This document shows positions 5,670 through 23,006 of a stretch of DNA of 64,000 nt, in pieces. The stretch covers positions 62,001-126,000 of the forward strand of contig JAKALM010000001.1 of assembly GCA_021824145.1 (NCBI GenBank), read 5' to 3'. Numbering within the stretch: position 1 is the first letter of the stretch; the number at the start of each line of letters is the position of its first letter. The translations under genes and the position numbers were made by a program. The notes under the pieces are model-generated. The model was not told where the DNA came from and ran no database searches. It saw only the letters and a program-made list of their open reading frames with translations. Origin of the DNA: Bacteroidota bacterium. Lineage in GTDB: Bacteria > Bacteroidota > Ignavibacteria > Ignavibacteriales > Ignavibacteriaceae.

Positions 5670-7265
5670 TTAAGAATTTCCTATCTCTTCAGTTAGTTCC
5701 TTTTGTGTTTTCTTCGAAAAGAATTTCACTTGTCCAATCGGAATTTTTTCATCTTCTTCAATTGTTAATCGAACTCCATATTTAAAGCGGAATTTGAAAA
5801 ACATTTTTAGCTTTCCAACTTTTAATTTAGATGCAAAAGTTGGGTGACATTTAATAATGAGCGATTTTTCTTTAGAATGTGTTTTGAATTTCTTAATCCA
5901 TTCTTCCAAATCGTAAACCACATGCGAATGTTTGGTTAATAATCCAGTTCCAAGGCAGTAAGGACAAACCTCTTTCATTGCCTGCATAATATTTTGCCTA
6001 ATTCTTTGCCGTGTAATTTGAACTAATCCAAAATCAGACATTGGAAGTACAGAAACTTTAGCTCTGTCTCTTCTGAATTCTTTTCTTAATTCGTCGTAAA
6101 TCTTTTTGCGGTTCTTTTCATCTTCAAGATCGATGAAATCAATTACAATTATTCCGCCTATATCGCGTAGTCTAAGCTGTCGCGCAACTTCTCTTGCGGC
6201 TTCTAAATCAGTTTTTAATGAATTTAATTCCTGCTCTTTGCTCTTAGCATATCTTCCGCTGTTAACATCAATAACAACCATTGCTTCGGTATGTTCGATT
6301 ATCAGATATCCGCCGCTTGGAAGAGGAACTTTTCTACCCATTAAAGTTTTGATTTGTTCTTCAATTTTAAAAGCATCAAAAATTGAGTTTGAAGATTTGA
6401 AAGATTCAATTTTATCAACCAAACTTGGCTGAACAAGTTGAACATAATTTTTAATTTGTTTGTAAAGTTTTTTGGAATCAATAAAAACTTTGGAAACATC
6501 TTGAGTAAATAAATCTCGAATAACGCTTGAGGTTGTGTTGAGATCTTGATAAATAAGCGAAGGTGGCTCTTCAGTCTTTACTGTAGCTTGAATTTGTTCC
6601 CAAGTTTTAAGAAGATTTCTTAAATCATCTCGCAAAGCTTCTTCCGGTTGGTTGCGTGCAACGGTGCGAATAATAAGACCAAATCTCTGAGGAAGGATAC
6701 TTCTTGCAATATGACGAAGGCGTTTTCTTTCTCGAAAATCTGAGATTTTTTTACTTACGCCAACCTTATTGTCAAAAGGAAGTAGAACACAAAATCTTCC
6801 GGCTAAAGAAACTGAAGATGTAACTCGAACACCTTTATTGTTAACAGGTTCTTTAGTTATTTGGATTAGAATATCCTGCCCTTTATGCAGCTTCGGAACA
6901 GAAGGTGCCTCATGAATTTCGGCAGTGTTTTCTTTTTCGTGTCTATTTGAATGATTTTCCTTATCCTGAGATTCCTCTTCATCATCTTCTTCAACGTCAC
7001 TGTCATCATCACCAAGCATATCCTGAAATTGTTGAGTGCGTGCGCCAATATCAGAAAAGTGAAGGAAAGCATCGTGTTTCATCCCGATGTCTATAAAAGC
7101 GGCTTTTATCCCCGGCAAGACTCTTGCAACTTTACCCAAATAAATGTCACCGACCATTCGTCGGTTTTCAGGATAATCGACAAAGAAGTCGACTAAATTT
7201 CCATCTTCCGTGATGGCTACACGTGTTTGTGTAGTAGATGAATTGATTATAATTTCTTTTGTCAT
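5670..7265 (-). CDS. rng: Ribonuclease G/E family endoribonuclease
   Basis: Single-strand-specific endonuclease for rRNA maturation and mRNA decay. The S1 domain (about residues 35-130) is interrupted by a very acidic insert with long Asp/Glu runs. The DNase I-like catalytic part shows VVIDVNSGRYA near 310 and IIVIDFIDLED near 345 with the metal-binding aspartates. The Zn-link CPYCLGTG follows near 435. I chose ATG at 7265 over an in-frame TTG at 7274, because an AAAGAG ribosome-binding site lies about ten bases upstream of the ATG. There is no C-terminal degradosome scaffold, so it is RNase G-like in size. pnp lies upstream, separated by about 380 bases. Confidence 0.93.
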   Translation of the reverse strand: MTKEIIINSSTTQTRVAITEDGNLVDFFVDYPENRRMVGDIYLGKVARVLPGIKAAFIDIGMKHDAFLHFSDIGARTQQFQDMLGDDDSDVEEDDEEESQDKENHSNRHEKENTAEIHEAPSVPKLHKGQDILIQITKEPVNNKGVRVTSSVSLAGRFCVLLPFDNKVGVSKKISDFRERKRLRHIARSILPQRFGLIIRTVARNQPEEALRDDLRNLLKTWEQIQATVKTEEPPSLIYQDLNTTSSVIRDLFTQDVSKVFIDSKKLYKQIKNYVQLVQPSLVDKIESFKSSNSIFDAFKIEEQIKTLMGRKVPLPSGGYLIIEHTEAMVVIDVNSGRYAKSKEQELNSLKTDLEAAREVARQLRLRDIGGIIVIDFIDLEDEKNRKKIYDELRKEFRRDRAKVSVLPMSDFGLVQITRQRIRQNIMQAMKEVCPYCLGTGLLTKHSHVVYDLEEWIKKFKTHSKEKSLIIKCHPTFASKLKVGKLKMFFKFRFKYGVRLTIEEDEKIPIGQVKFFSKKTQKELTEEIGNS

Positions 7266-16648: not shown

Positions 16649-16671
16649 AAAAATCGCCCTCAAGAGGGCGA
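16649..16671 (-). terminator. GC-rich hairpin with T-run directly upstream of rimP
   Basis: An eight-pair stem, core CGCCCTC/GAGGGCG (16655-16661 and 16664-16670) with a two-base loop, or six pairs with a CAAG/CTTG tetraloop. It is followed on the minus strand by TTTTT (16653-16649) and, 7 bases later, the rimP ATG. It has the form of an intrinsic terminator. It can end the upstream FecR-protein transcript and/or act as an attenuator in the rimP-nusA leader. The structure is directly visible; the role is inferred. Confidence 0.75.
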
Positions 16672-16778: not shown

Positions 16779-17462
16779 TTATTTCTGAGAAAGTTTTGAT
16801 GCTAATATTTCTAATTTATTCTTCACAATTTCTTTTTGATCGTTGGATAAATTTAAAGATTGAATTGATTTAAATTCATCATAAGCTTCTTCATTTAATC
16901 CAAAATCTGAAAGAATATTTGCAAAATATATTCTGAACGAAGCAAGATTTTTTGTCTCTGGATATTTCCTATAAGTATTCTTTGCATCAACAACGGCAGA
17001 TTCTTTATAGCCACTTTCTGCAAGTTGAACGGCACCATTTAATTTTTTAATTCCGAAATTATCAGTTTCAACTATTGGATTTTTTATCCCATTTATTTGA
17101 GCTCCGTAAACAGCAGTATTTTTAGAATTTGCTTCTTCTTTTTTCTTTGGTGCATTTAACATGTCTTCCATTGCCAAAGCAAGAATTAAATCATTTACAC
17201 CCATTTTTTTTATATCTGACAATTGAAGAGCCGATGAGCCCTTCAAAGTAAATTTTGATTTATTGCCGCTCAGAACAATAAGAGAATTTTTTCCGGTTTC
17301 AATTATTGAGTTTGTGTTTAGAGTTTGGTTTTCAACAACGTTCGACCAATTTTCACTTGTACCCACCTGAACTTTTACGTTTCCTTGAACTTTATCAACA
17401 TGAAATGATTGACCAAAAACAATTCCTGTAGAAATTATTATTGCCAATAAAATATTTTTCAT
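16779..17462 (-). CDS. Exported FecR-domain protein
   Basis: Starts with a signal peptide (MKNILLAIIISTGIVFG, cleavage near Gln). A FecR-like domain follows (about residues 20-90: VQGNVKVQVG, W-x-NV, N-x-IIETG-x-NS, KFTLKGSSALQL). The C-terminal half is helical, with AQLAESGYKESAV-like TPR character. The start is ATG 17462, because GAGG lies six bases upstream; the in-frame GTG at 17474 overlaps that site. FecR domains bind extracellular polymers or take part in signalling; no sigma factor is adjacent. It is the last gene of a barrel/lipoprotein operon, 31 bases beyond the barrel-transglutaminase gene. Confidence 0.8.
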   Translation of the reverse strand: MKNILLAIIISTGIVFGQSFHVDKVQGNVKVQVGTSENWSNVVENQTLNTNSIIETGKNSLIVLSGNKSKFTLKGSSALQLSDIKKMGVNDLILALAMEDMLNAPKKKEEANSKNTAVYGAQINGIKNPIVETDNFGIKKLNGAVQLAESGYKESAVVDAKNTYRKYPETKNLASFRIYFANILSDFGLNEEAYDEFKSIQSLNLSNDQKEIVKNKLEILASKLSQK

Positions 17463-17493
17463 TTTTAACCTCACTATACTTTTCCTAGTTTAA

Positions 17494-19485
17494 TTAATAT
17501 ATATCAACAATCGCCACACTTCCTTTTGCTATGCCAAGATTGTTAAGGGCATCTTCATTAAACTTTTGAGCGCCTAAATCCCAAGCTGTGTTAAAATTTG
17601 TTAGTGTTGTGGTTTCAATTGGAATCCAAATCTCATCTGCGCCGGATTCATTTTTTCGAATAAAATATTTGCTGTCATTTTGGGTTATTAGTTTTGCTTG
17701 TTCCGGTGAAAGTTGCGTATTTACCAAAACATTAACATGCCCAATCCCATTTACGGGTTTATAATCAACAAGCGCAGTTTGAATGCCAACACTTTCCAAA
17801 AGCGAACTGAAACAGACACTCAAGTCATCGCAATTGCCGCCTTTTAATTTTAAGGTTTCGTGTGGAAATTGGACATAATCAGCTTCTGCCCTTGGGTTTG
17901 CAGTATAAACTAGATTTTTTACAAAGTTATCGAATAAAAATTTTGTTTTGTAAAAAATAGAAAGCGCATAAGACATAGTGTCTAAGTCACTTTTATAATG
18001 ACTCAAAATATTTTTTGCATAATCCATTGAGAAATCAAAATCTCGTTTTATAAAATATCTAAGGTTAATTACTTTACCATCCCACGAATTTATTCCATTA
18101 ATCAAAATTGGTTTCTGAGCTTGATCTTCCAGTTCTTGGTTAGCCGATGCTAAATAAAAATCTACATAAGAAATTCCGGCTTTTTGTTTATCGTATGATT
18201 GTGGAATAATTGTATAGAAAGGAACTTTAACAGTGTCTTTCGGTGGAATCGAAACAACCGGCGACTCAATTTTACCATTATTAATACCTTCAATTTTACT
18301 AGATGGTTTTATCTGGACGAAATGGTTTGTCAGATTTACAACACGGCCAATTGCAAATGGTTTGTCTAAATAATTTTCAGTCAATGTTGGATAAATTTCA
18401 TTTAATATTTCTACATCTTGAAATTCAACTGTTTTTTCCGGAATTGCATTTATGTTAAAAGTTAAAGTAAGGATAGCTTTATCGAAACTGTAGCGGTTAT
18501 TAATTATGTTGCTGATTCCTTGATCTTGAAATAAAGAAAATGATTGAGGAATATTTCTATTTGAAAAATATTTCACACCAGAAAGTACAATTCCAAATAA
18601 ATTATTTGAATATGAAATAGCTGGAATAATTCCGGCAAAATAAGGCGATTGAAAATTATCGTGGAATGCTGTAATTCCAATTCCTAAATTTCCGCCAAAA
18701 GCATTTAAAAATTCATTTAAACCAATCTGAAGATTATTACCGGTTTCAAACAGTAAATTAAAATTAAACGAATCAATAGGATTTGCTGAAAAGCCTAACA
18801 AAATATTTTTTACTCTTCTAATATTGTATTGTGAAATATTTGGGTCGATGGAATTTTCATTTATGTTAATCAAATTAATTGATGAAAGTGAGAACGAAAT
18901 TTTTTCAGATGGCGAATAATTTATCCCAATATCACCGCGCCAAAAATTTGCTTTGTAATCTTCACTTTGTCTAACTAAATAAAGAGTATCAGAAAATACT
19001 GGCAATACACCTTCTTGGTTAAAATCTTGAGTAAAATATCGAAACGAAAATCCTGCAGAAAATTGATTTGAAATTCTATAAGAATATCCCAAGCCAAATA
19101 ATTCTTTATAAGTAAATTTAGAATCTAATTGCTGCGAAGTTGAATCTTGCAATACAATTGATTGGCCATTATTAAAAATAAATTCTTTCTGATAACCAGG
19201 AGTATAACGGAGTGAAACAAAATTATTGCCAATTTTTTTTGATAATGAAATCAAATATAAATTAGAAGTAGCGCTTGAAGAAAACTCGCCGCCGTATGAA
19301 AGAGTTAATCCCCAGTCTTTTAGATTTGAATAATTTGATGGATTGCTTTCAAAGCTATTCATCAAAGAAAAGTTTATAAAATCCGGAGACCAATATCCCG
19401 TAAGCTCGAATGAGCTTTGAGCTGATATCTTAATTGACATAAACAAAGCAATTATTAAAGTAACTTTGTAAAAATTTTTCTTCAA
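17494..19485 (-). CDS. Outer-membrane beta-barrel fused to a transglutaminase-like domain
   Basis: A 663-residue exported protein: signal peptide ending near AQS, then a PorV-like/OMP beta-barrel of about 330 residues. A beta-sandwich-like linker (about 360-475) has PPKDTVKVPF. The C-terminal part is a transglutaminase/cysteine-protease-like domain. Its likely catalytic triad is Cys552 in KGGNCDDLS, His583 in GIGHVNVLVN and Glu624 in WIPIETT (Asp is commoner at this last position). The barrel should hold the domain at the cell surface or in the periplasm. The start overlaps the upstream lipoprotein gene by four bases. I know of no named protein with this order; activity (peptidase or crosslinking) is inferred from the triad only. 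Confidence 0.8.
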   Translation of the reverse strand: MKKNFYKVTLIIALFMSIKISAQSSFELTGYWSPDFINFSLMNSFESNPSNYSNLKDWGLTLSYGGEFSSSATSNLYLISLSKKIGNNFVSLRYTPGYQKEFIFNNGQSIVLQDSTSQQLDSKFTYKELFGLGYSYRISNQFSAGFSFRYFTQDFNQEGVLPVFSDTLYLVRQSEDYKANFWRGDIGINYSPSEKISFSLSSINLININENSIDPNISQYNIRRVKNILLGFSANPIDSFNFNLLFETGNNLQIGLNEFLNAFGGNLGIGITAFHDNFQSPYFAGIIPAISYSNNLFGIVLSGVKYFSNRNIPQSFSLFQDQGISNIINNRYSFDKAILTLTFNINAIPEKTVEFQDVEILNEIYPTLTENYLDKPFAIGRVVNLTNHFVQIKPSSKIEGINNGKIESPVVSIPPKDTVKVPFYTIIPQSYDKQKAGISYVDFYLASANQELEDQAQKPILINGINSWDGKVINLRYFIKRDFDFSMDYAKNILSHYKSDLDTMSYALSIFYKTKFLFDNFVKNLVYTANPRAEADYVQFPHETLKLKGGNCDDLSVCFSSLLESVGIQTALVDYKPVNGIGHVNVLVNTQLSPEQAKLITQNDSKYFIRKNESGADEIWIPIETTTLTNFNTAWDLGAQKFNEDALNNLGIAKGSVAIVDIY

Positions 19486-20414
19486 GGAATATCTAGAATA
19501 ATACTGTGAATGCTTTGAGATAAAATAAATAAATCGCTTCCGCTGCCGGTAAAATGAATTTGATATTTTCTTACAAAAGTTAAAACCAACTTATTAAATT
19601 TGTTCTGCGGAATTTCATTTACCAGCTTTGCTGGAATTAATAATTTACCGGTATCTCGTGTTTTAATTTTATATAACGGTAATGTTGAATAAGTTCCATT
19701 AGAATTTTGAGCGGTTGTAACTGCGCCAAGGATAATTTCAATACTATCACTAGGATTTCCCTTATCCCAATTTAATAAACAGCTAAGAGTTTTATTTTTA
19801 ATTTTACCAGATAAAATTACTTTGCCTATTATTTCTTTAGGAGTTGGAATATCAAAATTAACAGAGTGTCCTTGCATTGGGATATATTGAAAATTTATTG
19901 AAGAATTATAATCAAAATTAAACTGTCCCATCATACCGCGAGTTAAAGCAAACATATTTCCCAATATTGTATCGGCATGCATTCCGTGGTTATTATAATT
20001 AATTTTGTAAGGAACAGTCATTGCAAAAATATTATTGAACTTAACTTTTCCAGGCGTAACAGTTTGGTAGCCAATTAATCTTCCGCTCGGCTCTCTAAAT
20101 GGCATGTTTCGATTATAAAAAATTGCCTGTGCAAATGAAATTTTTGTGGTAACATTATTTTCGGTTGTTTTTATCCCGCTCACATTAATTACATTGGAAT
20201 AATTTATTACTGGATTAGCTACCCCAGTCGTATCAAAACCATTATTATAATATTCGTCGGTTGGGTCTTTTGTTACAACCTCTACTTGAATAGGATTTTG
20301 TATTGAAGGATTGTCTTGTACCAATTCAGTTGGTGCTGGATTGTTGCAGCTATTGAGTAATATTCCACAAGCTACAAAGCACAAACAATATATAAATCTA
20401 AACAACTTTTTCAT
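19482..20414 (-). CDS. Lipoprotein of unknown function
   Basis: A 310-residue protein with a lipoprotein signal peptide (lipobox LLNSC, Cys23), so likely membrane-anchored in the envelope. The rest is beta-rich with two His-containing loops (NNHGMHADT and MQGHSVNF) that could hold a metal, but no family is recognised. It is the first gene of the cassette with the barrel-transglutaminase gene, whose start it overlaps by four bases, implying that the two proteins are made together. The function is unknown; partner or anchor of the barrel protein is inference. Confidence 0.75.
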   Translation of the reverse strand: MKKLFRFIYCLCFVACGILLNSCNNPAPTELVQDNPSIQNPIQVEVVTKDPTDEYYNNGFDTTGVANPVINYSNVINVSGIKTTENNVTTKISFAQAIFYNRNMPFREPSGRLIGYQTVTPGKVKFNNIFAMTVPYKINYNNHGMHADTILGNMFALTRGMMGQFNFDYNSSINFQYIPMQGHSVNFDIPTPKEIIGKVILSGKIKNKTLSCLLNWDKGNPSDSIEIILGAVTTAQNSNGTYSTLPLYKIKTRDTGKLLIPAKLVNEIPQNKFNKLVLTFVRKYQIHFTGSGSDLFILSQSIHSIILDIP

Positions 20415-20504: not shown

Positions 20505-20536
20505 TAAAATCTCTCCGTCCTCTTCGGAGAGATTTT
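20505..20536 (-). terminator. Intrinsic terminator after the 20566-21519 lipoprotein
   Basis: A perfect 12-pair stem, AAAATCTCTCCG (20506-20517) and CGGAGAGATTTT (20525-20536), with a seven-base loop. On the minus strand it is followed by ATTTTTTC. It lies about 30 bases after the lipoprotein stop and separates that gene from the downstream lipoprotein/barrel operon. Confidence 0.9.
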
Positions 20537-20565: not shown

Positions 20566-21519
20566 TCATTTTCGAACATAATATGGTACGCCCCAAGTGT
20601 TAGATTCAACTGGGGTAGAATCATCAAAAATAACTTGCTTAGGAAAAACATTTATAACAGCATGAAAATAACCTGGCCAAGTATGTGTTACAAAAGTTTG
20701 TTGATATACTTTTGCATAAGTATTTCCATTTTGAGTTGATGAAATAAGATTAAATTTAATTTTTTCTCTATGCAAGCCTTGCATATCGGCGCCATGTGTG
20801 AGCGTTACAAAATCAGTATCGGCATAAGCGCTGGTAACGCTTAGTTGGATAGTAACTTTTTGCCCGCTTTTGAAATGCGGAACTTGTTTCCATCTTCCTT
20901 GGCCAAGGGCCAAATAATAATCATTCGGATCATTAATAATTAGTATATCTCCATTCGGCATGTTTATCGTCATCTGAGTGATATAAACATTGGAGTTTAA
21001 TGTTCCGCCTTCAGGTAATGAAACAGCAATTACCTTCCAATCAAAATTAACAGAATCCAGCGGATTGTTATTCTTTTTAAGCAGAACCACTTTTCTTGTA
21101 ATTACAGCAGTAAATGGTTTTTGAATCGTTGTGTCGTGAGTGTGTGTTGTTGAGTCATAAGAAGCTGCAATATATAAAACTCCTTCAAATGTTCTAGTAT
21201 AAGTTCCATAAGCAGTATCACCAGACATTGAATAAGTAAAATCTGTAGAAACAACTCTCATCTTTTGTCCAACACGCAATGGATAGATTGCCGTAGTAGT
21301 TTTTCCAATCAAATTCATTGCAGATTCTTCATTATAATTATAATCAAACGAAGAAATTGCAGAATCACCTTCTACAGCTTTTAACATTGCCTGCTGAGTT
21401 GAACTACTTTGAACCCCAACTGGTCCAGTTGGCAAATTCTTACAACCTGTAACAAGCATCAATATTACAGAAACTGAAATAATAGCCAAGTTCTTTAATG
21501 CGAAAATTTTGCCATTCAT
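20566..21519 (-). CDS. Lipoprotein of unknown function
   Basis: A 317-residue lipoprotein: hydrophobic signal of about 24 residues ending in the lipobox LVTGC (Cys26). The mature part is beta-rich and full of Ser/Thr/Asp, with a TTHTHDTT stretch near residue 140 and THGADMQGLHRE near 245. No family is recognised. It is monocistronic by structure, ending in a strong terminator. It sits just upstream of the barrel-transglutaminase operon but need not be functionally tied to it. Confidence 0.75.
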   Translation of the reverse strand: MNGKIFALKNLAIISVSVILMLVTGCKNLPTGPVGVQSSSTQQAMLKAVEGDSAISSFDYNYNEESAMNLIGKTTTAIYPLRVGQKMRVVSTDFTYSMSGDTAYGTYTRTFEGVLYIAASYDSTTHTHDTTIQKPFTAVITRKVVLLKKNNNPLDSVNFDWKVIAVSLPEGGTLNSNVYITQMTINMPNGDILIINDPNDYYLALGQGRWKQVPHFKSGQKVTIQLSVTSAYADTDFVTLTHGADMQGLHREKIKFNLISSTQNGNTYAKVYQQTFVTHTWPGYFHAVINVFPKQVIFDDSTPVESNTWGVPYYVRK

Positions 21520-22223: not shown

Positions 22224-22244
22224 TGTAAAACTTTGAAGGTAAAA

Positions 22245-23006
22245 ATGAAGTTTAGAACATTTCCAATCTTATTTTTTCTATTACTAATTTCTGTTAATAA
22301 TTATTCTCAGAAAAAAAATAGTAAAACTTTATATCAAACATCTCCAATAATTTCTCTTCTTAATGGCGTAATGAATGATAGTATTACGATTGGAGAAGTA
22401 GAGCATTATGGTGATTTTGGCCTTGGCACATATAACGGTGTTGATGGCGAAATGATAGTATTAAACAAAAAAGTTTATCGCGTTGATTATGATGGTAAAG
22501 TTAATCAGCCAGAAAAATCGGAAAAAACTCCATTTGCTTGTGTAACATTTTTTCATTCTGATGAATCTTTTGATTGGAACAACGAAATGGATTACAATAA
22601 ATTTATTGAAAAACTTGACGAGAAACTTCCATCCCAAAATTTAATTTATGCAATTAAAATAACCGGTCGCTTTGTTGAAATGGAAACAAGAAGTGAATCA
22701 AAACAAGCTAAACCTTATTCAAATCTTTCTGATGTTTTAAAAAATCAATCTGTTTTTAAATTCAAAAATATACAAGGTACATTGGTAGGATTTAAATTTC
22801 CCAATTATATGCAAGGCGTAAATGTTCCAGGATATCATTTTCATTTTTTATCATTGGATAAAAAAGAAGGCGGACATGTTTTAAACTTTACAAGTGGAAA
22901 AGTAAAAATTGAGATTGAAATGATAAATACTTTTGAAATGAATTTCCCCCAGACAAAAGAATTTTTAAAAGCTGATTTTGATAAAAAGCCAGCTCCAGGT
23001 TTGTAA
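22245..23006 (+). CDS. budA: Exported alpha-acetolactate decarboxylase
   Basis: Converts acetolactate to acetoin and CO2. The 253-residue protein has the family layout: YQTSPIISLLNGVM near residue 30, the FGLGTYNGVDGEM segment near 65 and TFFHSD near 100. The zinc site is GYHFHFLS followed by GGH near 197-212 (His-x-His...His). A signal peptide precedes it (MKFRTFPILFFLLLISV, cleavage near NYSQ). I take ATG 22245 because GAAGG lies five bases upstream; the in-frame TTG at 22233 overlaps this site. It sits 21 bases after the mscL remnant. The alternative symbol is alsD. Export is predicted by sequence only. Confidence 0.9.
   Translation: MKFRTFPILFFLLLISVNNYSQKKNSKTLYQTSPIISLLNGVMNDSITIGEVEHYGDFGLGTYNGVDGEMIVLNKKVYRVDYDGKVNQPEKSEKTPFACVTFFHSDESFDWNNEMDYNKFIEKLDEKLPSQNLIYAIKITGRFVEMETRSESKQAKPYSNLSDVLKNQSVFKFKNIQGTLVGFKFPNYMQGVNVPGYHFHFLSLDKKEGGHVLNFTSGKVKIEIEMINTFEMNFPQTKEFLKADFDKKPAPGL

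Follow-up and report, generated by a model that had tools for sequence, protein, structure and literature searches.

In the genome of an Ignavibacteriaceae bacterium of the phylum Bacteroidota (assembly GCA_021824145.1), we identified a cluster of four genes, LP2-LP1-BAR-FEC, which is conserved across the class Ignavibacteria and is co-inherited with a gene coding for a CHASE2-sigma54 activator. The cluster lies in a 64,000-nucleotide stretch of contig JAKALM010000001.1 (here termed the window, meaning the whole stretch, in whose positions coordinates are given) and codes for the following proteins: the lipoprotein-like LP2; the lipoprotein LP1; BAR, in which a predicted outer-membrane barrel is followed by an immunoglobulin (Ig)-like spacer and a transglutaminase-fold (TG) domain; and FEC, a secreted FecR-like protein. 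An earlier note on this DNA had described the last three of these genes; the unit exceeds that description, as LP2 recurs with them and the CHASE2-sigma54 activator co-occurs. The composition and the co-inheritance of the system are well supported. We further propose, tentatively and at somewhat less than an even chance, that these bacteria have a trans-envelope signalling system in which LP2, LP1, BAR and FEC form the arm at the outer membrane and in the periplasm, and the CHASE2-sigma54 protein is the inner-membrane receptor and output.

Conservation of the cluster and its co-inheritance with a CHASE2-sigma54 activator

The cluster was compared with 24 further loci at the level of the class (L031-L054), reaching down to about 27% identity. 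All 24 have a FEC homologue after the BAR gene, and 22 have an LP1 homologue before it; LP2 homologues are found in 22, being missing from L036, whose contig begins just ahead of LP1, and from L052. In L049 and L051 an open reading frame of 277 or 323 amino acids occupies the position of LP1 with no detectable similarity to it. The gene order that the earlier note had proposed checking in relatives is conserved, and a lipoprotein and a FecR-like protein are constant partners of BAR. The named loci come from metagenome bins of the Ignavibacteriaceae and Melioribacteraceae, and a peptide-pattern scan, the one search made outside the draw of genomes from the phylum described below, returned three loci, all of the same group. 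The family alignments A2, A3 and A4 hold 20, 16 and 20, respectively, of the sequences found. In a library of anti-phage systems BAR, LP1 and LP2 had no match, and the matches of the activator were to AAA+ domains only.

The activator of the host genome (locus L074) lies about 375 kb from the BAR cluster and combines a CHASE2 domain (E 9.8e-30; 104.4 bits against a cut-off of 26.3) with a Sigma54_activat domain (E 2.5e-70) in which the GAFTGA motif is present; both Pfam domains are likewise found in the activators of L033 and L040. We searched a draw of 296 genomes from the phylum with BAR and with the CHASE2-sigma54 protein of L040. BAR has a match of any kind in 53 genomes and a match running through both the barrel and the TG domain (query start at or before residue 44) in 22. 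The best matches of the L040 activator (E <= 2.4e-124) fall in exactly those 22 genomes, spanning its whole length in 16 and, in the other six, starting at about residue 222-236 and reaching 810. The activator query matches all 296 genomes since the AAA+ domain is common; the next-best matches are those in G018 (E 2e-111) and G073 (3e-110), with all other genomes at 1.5e-81 or worse, and these two genomes also code for a BAR-length homologue with a FEC-like neighbour (L060 and L056). BAR itself has a single match in the 3.48-Mb host genome.

In 14 of the 22 genomes the activator gene is adjacent to the cluster on its upstream side, in one (G132) it is adjacent downstream on the other strand, and in seven it is elsewhere: far off on the same contig in the host genome (G000), G294 and G236, and on another contig in G140, G148, G152 and G255, in the last of which both contigs end close to the genes and the BAR-activator distance is uncertain. 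In one family (f1) BAR and activator are both present in seven of 11 genomes and both absent from four; in another (f2) eight of 16 have both and eight have neither; and two genera each include a species with both and a species without either. These 22 co-occurrences are not independent events, as they come from nested relatives within a single phylum, and we claim no statistic of independent events. The joint presence and absence of BAR and activator, even where the loci are unlinked, is our main argument that the two work together.

In the host, L075, L077 and L078, the activator gene comes after genes that we read by eye as hslV-hslU and is clustered with an apparent rpoN. When the C-terminal parts of five activators were searched with helix-turn-helix profiles, that of L081 alone gave a match (HTH_ParB, 1.1e-4), and the others look alike at the aligned positions. 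Downstream of the unlinked activators at five of the six loci L074-L079 (not L078), we noticed by eye a gene for a secreted protein of about 300 amino acids, rich in D, E, W and H past its signal peptide (Table 1), which is possibly a target or a further component.

BAR: a barrel, a spacer and a transglutaminase-fold domain

The barrel of BAR is recognized by the NCBIfam profile PorV_fam over residues 43-197 (E 4e-7, under the family cut-off), and the same profile reaches 14 of 23 BAR homologues at E 0.01 (best 3e-16). An AlphaFold2 model of the full protein, built from a shallow alignment of four sequences, has a mean predicted local distance difference test score (pLDDT) of 53 and a predicted template modelling score (pTM) of 0.43; it places 14 strands over residues 58-347, with a moderate block pLDDT of about 60-73 for most of them. 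This part of the model resembles the FadL-type channel TodX (3bs0_A; Z 19.0, root-mean-square deviation 4.0, 277 residues aligned), CymD (Z 18.9) and the F chain in each of two type 9 secretion complexes (8gl6, Z 18.6; 6h3i, Z 18.2), which we take to be PorV. The outer-membrane barrel that the earlier note had read from the sequence is hence borne out by structure prediction as one of 14-strand FadL/PorV type. The spacer, in a model of residues 348-663 alone, has a pLDDT of 78-90 over residues 378-427, with lower values at the edges, and matches beta-sandwich domains at Z of about 9-10.5. Foldseek rows to human transglutaminases were set aside as evidence for the TG domain, as it is the beta-sandwich domains of those enzymes that align, and they do so to the BAR spacer. 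Given the even number of strands and the N-terminal signal peptide, both ends of the barrel, and with them the catalytic TG domain, should lie on the periplasmic side and not at the cell surface.

The TG domain is recognized by sequence profiles. With Pfam Transglut_core (PF01841) the whole of BAR scores 22.7 bits, just short of the cut-off of 23, and the isolated TG domain 25.6 bits, over it; the family is matched by 33 of 35 TG domains at E 0.05. All 42 aligned homologues have Cys552, His583 and Glu624, the alignment being without L069 and L071, in which phmmer detects no BAR; on re-check L071 proved to be an unrelated lipoprotein-like TG protein with neither FEC nor CHASE2 neighbours. The TG alignment A6 holds 35 of these 42 proteins, and A7 holds 23. 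Searched against the PDB, the profile of 35 TG domains finds 4u65 (E 8e-7) and 4fgo (E 5e-6), with the next best at 0.03; both are structures of LapG (PMC4359373). At the level of sequence, these matches show the TG domain to be related to LapG, and the NCBIfam LapG model touches two of 23 BAR family members (best 0.0026). The conserved Cys552, His583 and Glu624 and, by sequence, the transglutaminase-like domain are upheld, while the triad geometry is left as a reading of the sequence owing to the poor modelling of the TG domain; for the same reason the fold searches test the barrel and the spacer alone. Separately, residues 538-644 of BAR give a weak match to the NCBIfam anti-phage protein ProA (0.0016; six of 23 homologues, best 1.1e-4), which probably reflects the shared transglutaminase fold only.

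FEC, the FecR-like partner

FEC has the following layout: a beta domain resembling FecR and the LapA retention module, a helix, a linker, and a TPR-like helical domain, the helix and the TPR-like part being predicted from the sequence. The Pfam FecR profile (PF04773) matches none of 20 FEC family members at E 0.1 and nothing genome-wide in the host at E 1. Profile-profile comparison with hhalign, by contrast, joins FEC to six short Pfam-positive FecR proteins at 94% probability (E 1.7e-7), with less than 1% to the profiles of LP1 or LP2. The "FecR domain" of the earlier description is accordingly FecR-like with respect to the short FecR group, and it is unmatched by the Pfam profile itself. 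At E 0.1 the LapA retention module (NF033682) touches the N-terminal beta domain in 16 of the 20 members (best 2e-6), and against solved structures FEC has no supported relative. We consider FEC to be weakly linked by sequence to FecR and retention modules.

A conserved helix-like stretch at residues 85-104 is followed by Pro105 and then by a variable linker that holds a conserved island, (N)TAVYG. In 19 close sequences the mean column entropy of residues 115-120 is 0.41 bits, compared with 2.12 and 2.77 on its two sides, and Gly120 is present in 33 of 33 counted rows, the count being made after four motif-less rows (L065, L070, L072 and L073) had been set aside for the absence of the motif; the underlying alignment of "next genes" is without five loci in which that gene exceeds 400 amino acids (L063, L064, L066, L067 and L068). 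A LapG substrate runs from its retention domain through a targeting helix and DP to [T/A/P]AAG (PMC13090378); on our own reading the layout of FEC resembles this, with TAVYG at the place of the LapA cleavage site.

The lipoproteins LP1 and LP2

LP1 has a signal peptide with a Cys lipobox, read by eye, and its Cys23 is invariant in all 16 sequences aligned (of 23 found). Neither LP1 nor LP2 has a supported relative in Pfam, NCBIfam or the solved structures. In L032 the LP2 gene (5737-6402) seems broken, with a piece of 96 amino acids followed by a short frame, which could be an assembly error. The lipoprotein had earlier been offered as a possible substrate of the barrel protein, a part for which we now judge FEC the most likely candidate.

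Distant relatives of the TG domain

Lower-scoring homologues of BAR length (L055, L057-L059, L061 and L062) are encoded directly behind a gene for a CHASE2-type AAA+ protein; in L057 the CHASE2 domain is a Pfam match, and a short frame of its own carries the stronger CHASE2 match of L055. Other TG proteins are longer, with 826-1674 amino acids; the four of these scanned with Pfam all have TPR matches, weak or better, and no barrel family is among the matches listed. In L067, L068, L070, L072 and L073 (Pfam) the TG gene is one or two genes away from one for a CHASE2 guanylate/adenylate cyclase, and in L069, by our own hidden Markov models, a TG gene of 1513 amino acids is followed by a FEC-like gene (1e-4) and then a CHASE2 cyclase; L065 has a FEC-like neighbour only. 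Thus, the common thread of these neighborhoods is a TG gene in the company of CHASE2 genes, with an output domain behind CHASE2 that differs from case to case and with FEC-like genes in part of them.

The neighbor labels given by our own models are partly circular, as training sequences were among the targets; independent of this are the Pfam CHASE2 matches and the FEC-like neighbors of L055, L056, L057, L060, L061, L062 and L065. At 1e-3 the FEC model misses L058 and L059, and phmmer reaches L058 at 8e-4. Just upstream of the TG and CHASE2-cyclase pair of L067 (10200-10703) there is also a gene for a CsgG/LpoB-like protein (E 2.6e-15).

Organization of the locus

Table 1. Coordinates of the cluster in the window and of related genes elsewhere
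Feature	Coordinates	Strand	Details
LP2	20566..21519	-	317-amino-acid lipoprotein-like protein; first gene of the conserved cluster
Hairpin in the LP2/LP1 gap	20506..20536	-	Intrinsic-terminator-like; 12 pairs then ATTTTTTC
LP1	19482..20414	-	310-amino-acid lipoprotein; 4-base overlap with the BAR gene
BAR	17494..19485	-	663 amino acids, TTG start; outer-membrane barrel, Ig-like and TG domains
BAR barrel, residues 58-347	18445..19314	-	14-strand, FadL/PorV type; from model and structure matches
BAR Ig-like spacer, about residues 353-462	18100..18429	-	From model and structure matches
BAR TG domain, residues 470-655	17521..18078	-	From profile matches (Pfam, PDB)
BAR Cys552 codon	17830..17832	-	C in 42/42 aligned
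BAR His583 codon	17737..17739	-	H in 42/42 aligned
BAR Glu624 codon	17614..17616	-	E in 42/42 aligned
FEC	16779..17462	-	227-amino-acid secreted protein, ATG start; alternatively from 17474 (GTG), 231 amino acids
TAVYG motif of the FEC linker, residues 116-120	17103..17117	-	Candidate recognition or cleavage site
Hairpin 3' of FEC, ahead of rimP	16654..16671	-	Intrinsic-terminator-like; from sequence scan
CHASE2-AAA+ sigma54 activator, host genome	G000:C27:456246-458699		About 375 kb from the BAR cluster
D/E/W/H-rich proteins	L074:11021-11914, L075:10632-11534, L076:10364-11242, L077:3508-4431, L079:10425-11372		Not in L078

The three minus-strand genes are arranged as first described, with the stop codon of LP1 overlapping the start of BAR by four bases. 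The spacing given for the third gene needed correction: instead of eight bases, 19 separate the TAA of BAR from the GTG start of FEC and 31 from its ATG, the latter, with AGG six bases upstream, being the likelier start. LP1, BAR and FEC look like a single transcription unit preceded by LP2, as terminator-like hairpins flank the three genes in the LP2/LP1 gap and after FEC. A hairpin with a T-rich tail occupies the LP2-LP1 gap in 17 of 21 loci measured, by a loose search run without a shuffled control, and in the region itself three terminator-like sites are seen against 2.2 expected, which makes this evidence of consensus only. Adjoining the cluster is a gene on the plus strand (22233-23006) for an acetolactate decarboxylase (E 3.5e-82) with an apparent N-terminal signal peptide, which is absent among the printed neighbors of the relatives.

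Proposed mechanism and alternatives

Based on these observations, the signalling system that we propose might operate in the following manner: BAR, seated in the outer membrane, would carry a LapG-like cysteine protease of transglutaminase fold into the periplasm on its Ig-like spacer, and a cue at the barrel or in the envelope would license the cleavage, or the binding, of FEC. With its beta domain of retention type, helix, proline and variable linker bearing TAVYG, FEC would be the likely substrate of BAR, carrying a TPR-like domain where a LapG substrate carries an adhesin. Released or altered FEC would then act on the extracytoplasmic CHASE2 domain of the activator, and the cytoplasmic AAA+ part of the latter would open sigma54 promoters. 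The periplasmic side, the protease activity, FEC as the substrate, the direction of the signal and the sigma54 targets are all what we infer. The TG domain may hydrolyse or may crosslink; in our reading it would be a protease that probably clips FEC. The more specific version, a new class of trans-envelope signalling in which the barrel-borne LapG-like protease cleaves FEC at the linker motif and the product switches the CHASE2-sigma54 protein, which would drive sigma54 transcription directly, with a cyclase output in the distant relatives, we hold to be rather unlikely.

Several findings weigh against the signalling reading or parts of it. The match to the LapG structures spans the Cys half of the TG domain only; PF06035, the LapG (C93) family, is not among the eight families that the 35 TG domains match at E 0.05; and the triad is C-H-E, with Glu in 42 of 42, as opposed to the C-H-D of LapG. 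Moreover, the residue preceding the catalytic Cys, an Asp in the aligned LapG, is an Asn in BAR (residue 551, codon 17833-17835), with Asp in 40 and Glu in one of the other 41 aligned proteins. The models of the TG domain are of low confidence, both in the full protein, at the scores given above, and in residues 348-663 (pLDDT 55, pTM 0.40). As regards FEC, hhalign gives 0.6% against ten long Pfam-positive FecR proteins, and the short and long FecR groups match each other at just 66%. NF033682 has no match over its curated cut-off (50 bits) in any of 19 genomes searched, and at E 0.1 its matches extend to FecR-type proteins of genomes that lack BAR and to four of 14 control genomes; as it cannot separate the retention module from the FecR fold, the kinship may amount to a mere shared fold. 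The FEC motif, TAVYG, differs from the [T/A/P]AAG of LapG substrates, and it is missing from the neighbors of the TG proteins of 1571-1674 amino acids (L065, L070 and L073) and of that in L072. Among the distant TG relatives, L063-L066 have no CHASE2 gene within six genes. In nine of 31 activators (L033, L038 and L042-L048) the fifth residue of the GAFTGA loop is Asn (GAFTNA or GSFTNA). In Sinorhizobium a Clr-regulated FecR-domain protein is dispensable for signal perception (PMC5498481), which cautions against assuming that proteins of FecR type act as relays.

Scans for -24/-12 elements upstream of LP2, LP1, BAR and FEC found nothing consistent in the loci scanned, nor did those upstream of the activator and its downstream gene, and this too counts against the proposal. 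Sites of this kind were seen in L044, 43 bases ahead of LP2 (score 12.5) and 365 bases ahead of the activator (score 13), scores that 1.0% and 0.3%, respectively, of 782 gene upstreams reach, and a strict genome-wide pattern gave two sites against none in the control. The lack of consistent elements argues against the regulation of the system by its own sigma54 activator.

The earlier note had placed the genes in an envelope-processing unit. Given a CHASE2-sigma54 activator in all 22 genomes with full-length BAR, the system looks at least as much like a signalling system. A regulated form of the processing idea, in which periplasmic BAR trims or crosslinks LP1, LP2 or other envelope proteins and the activator merely switches on expression of the unit according to the state of the envelope, strikes us as rather unlikely. 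Strict co-inheritance and linkage would fit a dedicated regulator equally well, and LP2, being followed by a terminator-like hairpin, could be made in excess as a structural lipoprotein is. Against it stand the want of a consistent -24/-12 element ahead of the four genes, L044 being the best single case, the occurrence of CHASE2 partners with cyclase outputs, and the fact that the most constant neighbor of BAR is FEC (24 of 24) and not LP1 or LP2 (22 of 24 each). It is similarly conceivable, at a lower probability that we would call unlikely, that the TG domain serves for binding or as a scaffold, or that it hydrolyses a different bond such as that of a peptidoglycan peptide, with TAVYG serving for docking only and the signal passed by binding in the manner of NsrA. 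Many transglutaminase-fold domains are not proteases, and the NsrA barrel of Sinorhizobium feeds CHASE2 cyclases with no protease domain mentioned in the parts of the reports drawn on (PMC13001267, PMC7529298); yet the invariance of C, H and E in 42 of 42 exceeds what binding needs, and the nearest solved relatives of the TG domain are proteases.

The reach of PorV_fam and the structural matches to chains of type 9 secretion complexes would also suit a helper of PorV/PorQ type, whose barrel moves substrates or lipoproteins to the surface while the TG domain processes them en route. As the similarity is equally of FadL type (Z within 1), and as the CHASE2 and FEC partners would be left unexplained, we regard this as very improbable.

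Relation to known systems and significance

Among the closest known systems is the Lap system of Pseudomonas and its relatives, with Dvh of Desulfovibrio. Both it and the proposed system have, in the latter by prediction, a periplasmic cysteine enzyme of transglutaminase fold, with LapG providing the best solved relatives of the TG domain, a partner with a retention-type beta domain, helix and linker motif (PMC13090378), and an inner-membrane signalling protein as the third element. In our system, however, the enzyme is fused to an outer-membrane barrel and has C-H-E in place of C-H-D, the candidate substrate is a small TPR-like protein instead of a giant adhesin and bears TAVYG instead of [T/A/P]AAG, and a CHASE2-sigma54 protein stands in place of the c-di-GMP receptor LapD. 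Peptidase_C93 had no match over its cut-off in the 19 genomes searched, with two matches below threshold.

In the NsrA-CyaD1/D2/K system of Sinorhizobium meliloti, an outer-membrane barrel is needed for inner-membrane CHASE2 signalling (PMC13001267, PMC7529298). Our system is set apart from it, by description only, through its sigma54 output (cyclases in the distant relatives), the TG domain on the barrel, the lipoproteins and FEC. In the BiofilmReg operon of Burkholderia, a periplasmic FecR-domain protein is encoded beside a CHASE2 sensor; there the output is through a CHASE2 histidine kinase and response regulator, the FecR protein has a LysM domain, and the part of the paper drawn on describes neither barrel nor TG domain (PMC5192318). 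The precedents of the NsrA-dependent CHASE2 cyclases and of the FecR/LysM protein beside a CHASE2 kinase make a chain from barrel to CHASE2 plausible; what CHASE2 domains sense was unknown as of 2016 (PMC5192318). The barrels of PorV/PorQ and FadL share the 14-strand fold and the PorV_fam profile, but BAR differs from them in its C-terminal Ig-like and TG domains.

The literature searched, which excluded subscription papers and preprints and was seen in part, gave no description of the BAR-FEC-CHASE2 combination; the remark of the earlier note that it knew of no described system of such composition agrees with that search.

Signalling that starts at the outer membrane and ends at genes is known from few systems. 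The set described here is compact and inherited together: an enzyme in the outer membrane, a candidate relay substrate in which one motif stands out, and a receptor that acts directly on transcription. This renders the question testable with purified parts. If the proposal is true, proteolysis of the LapG type would reach beyond adhesin release to the control of genes, and the system suggests a new route by which an outer-membrane signal could reach the genes of these bacteria.

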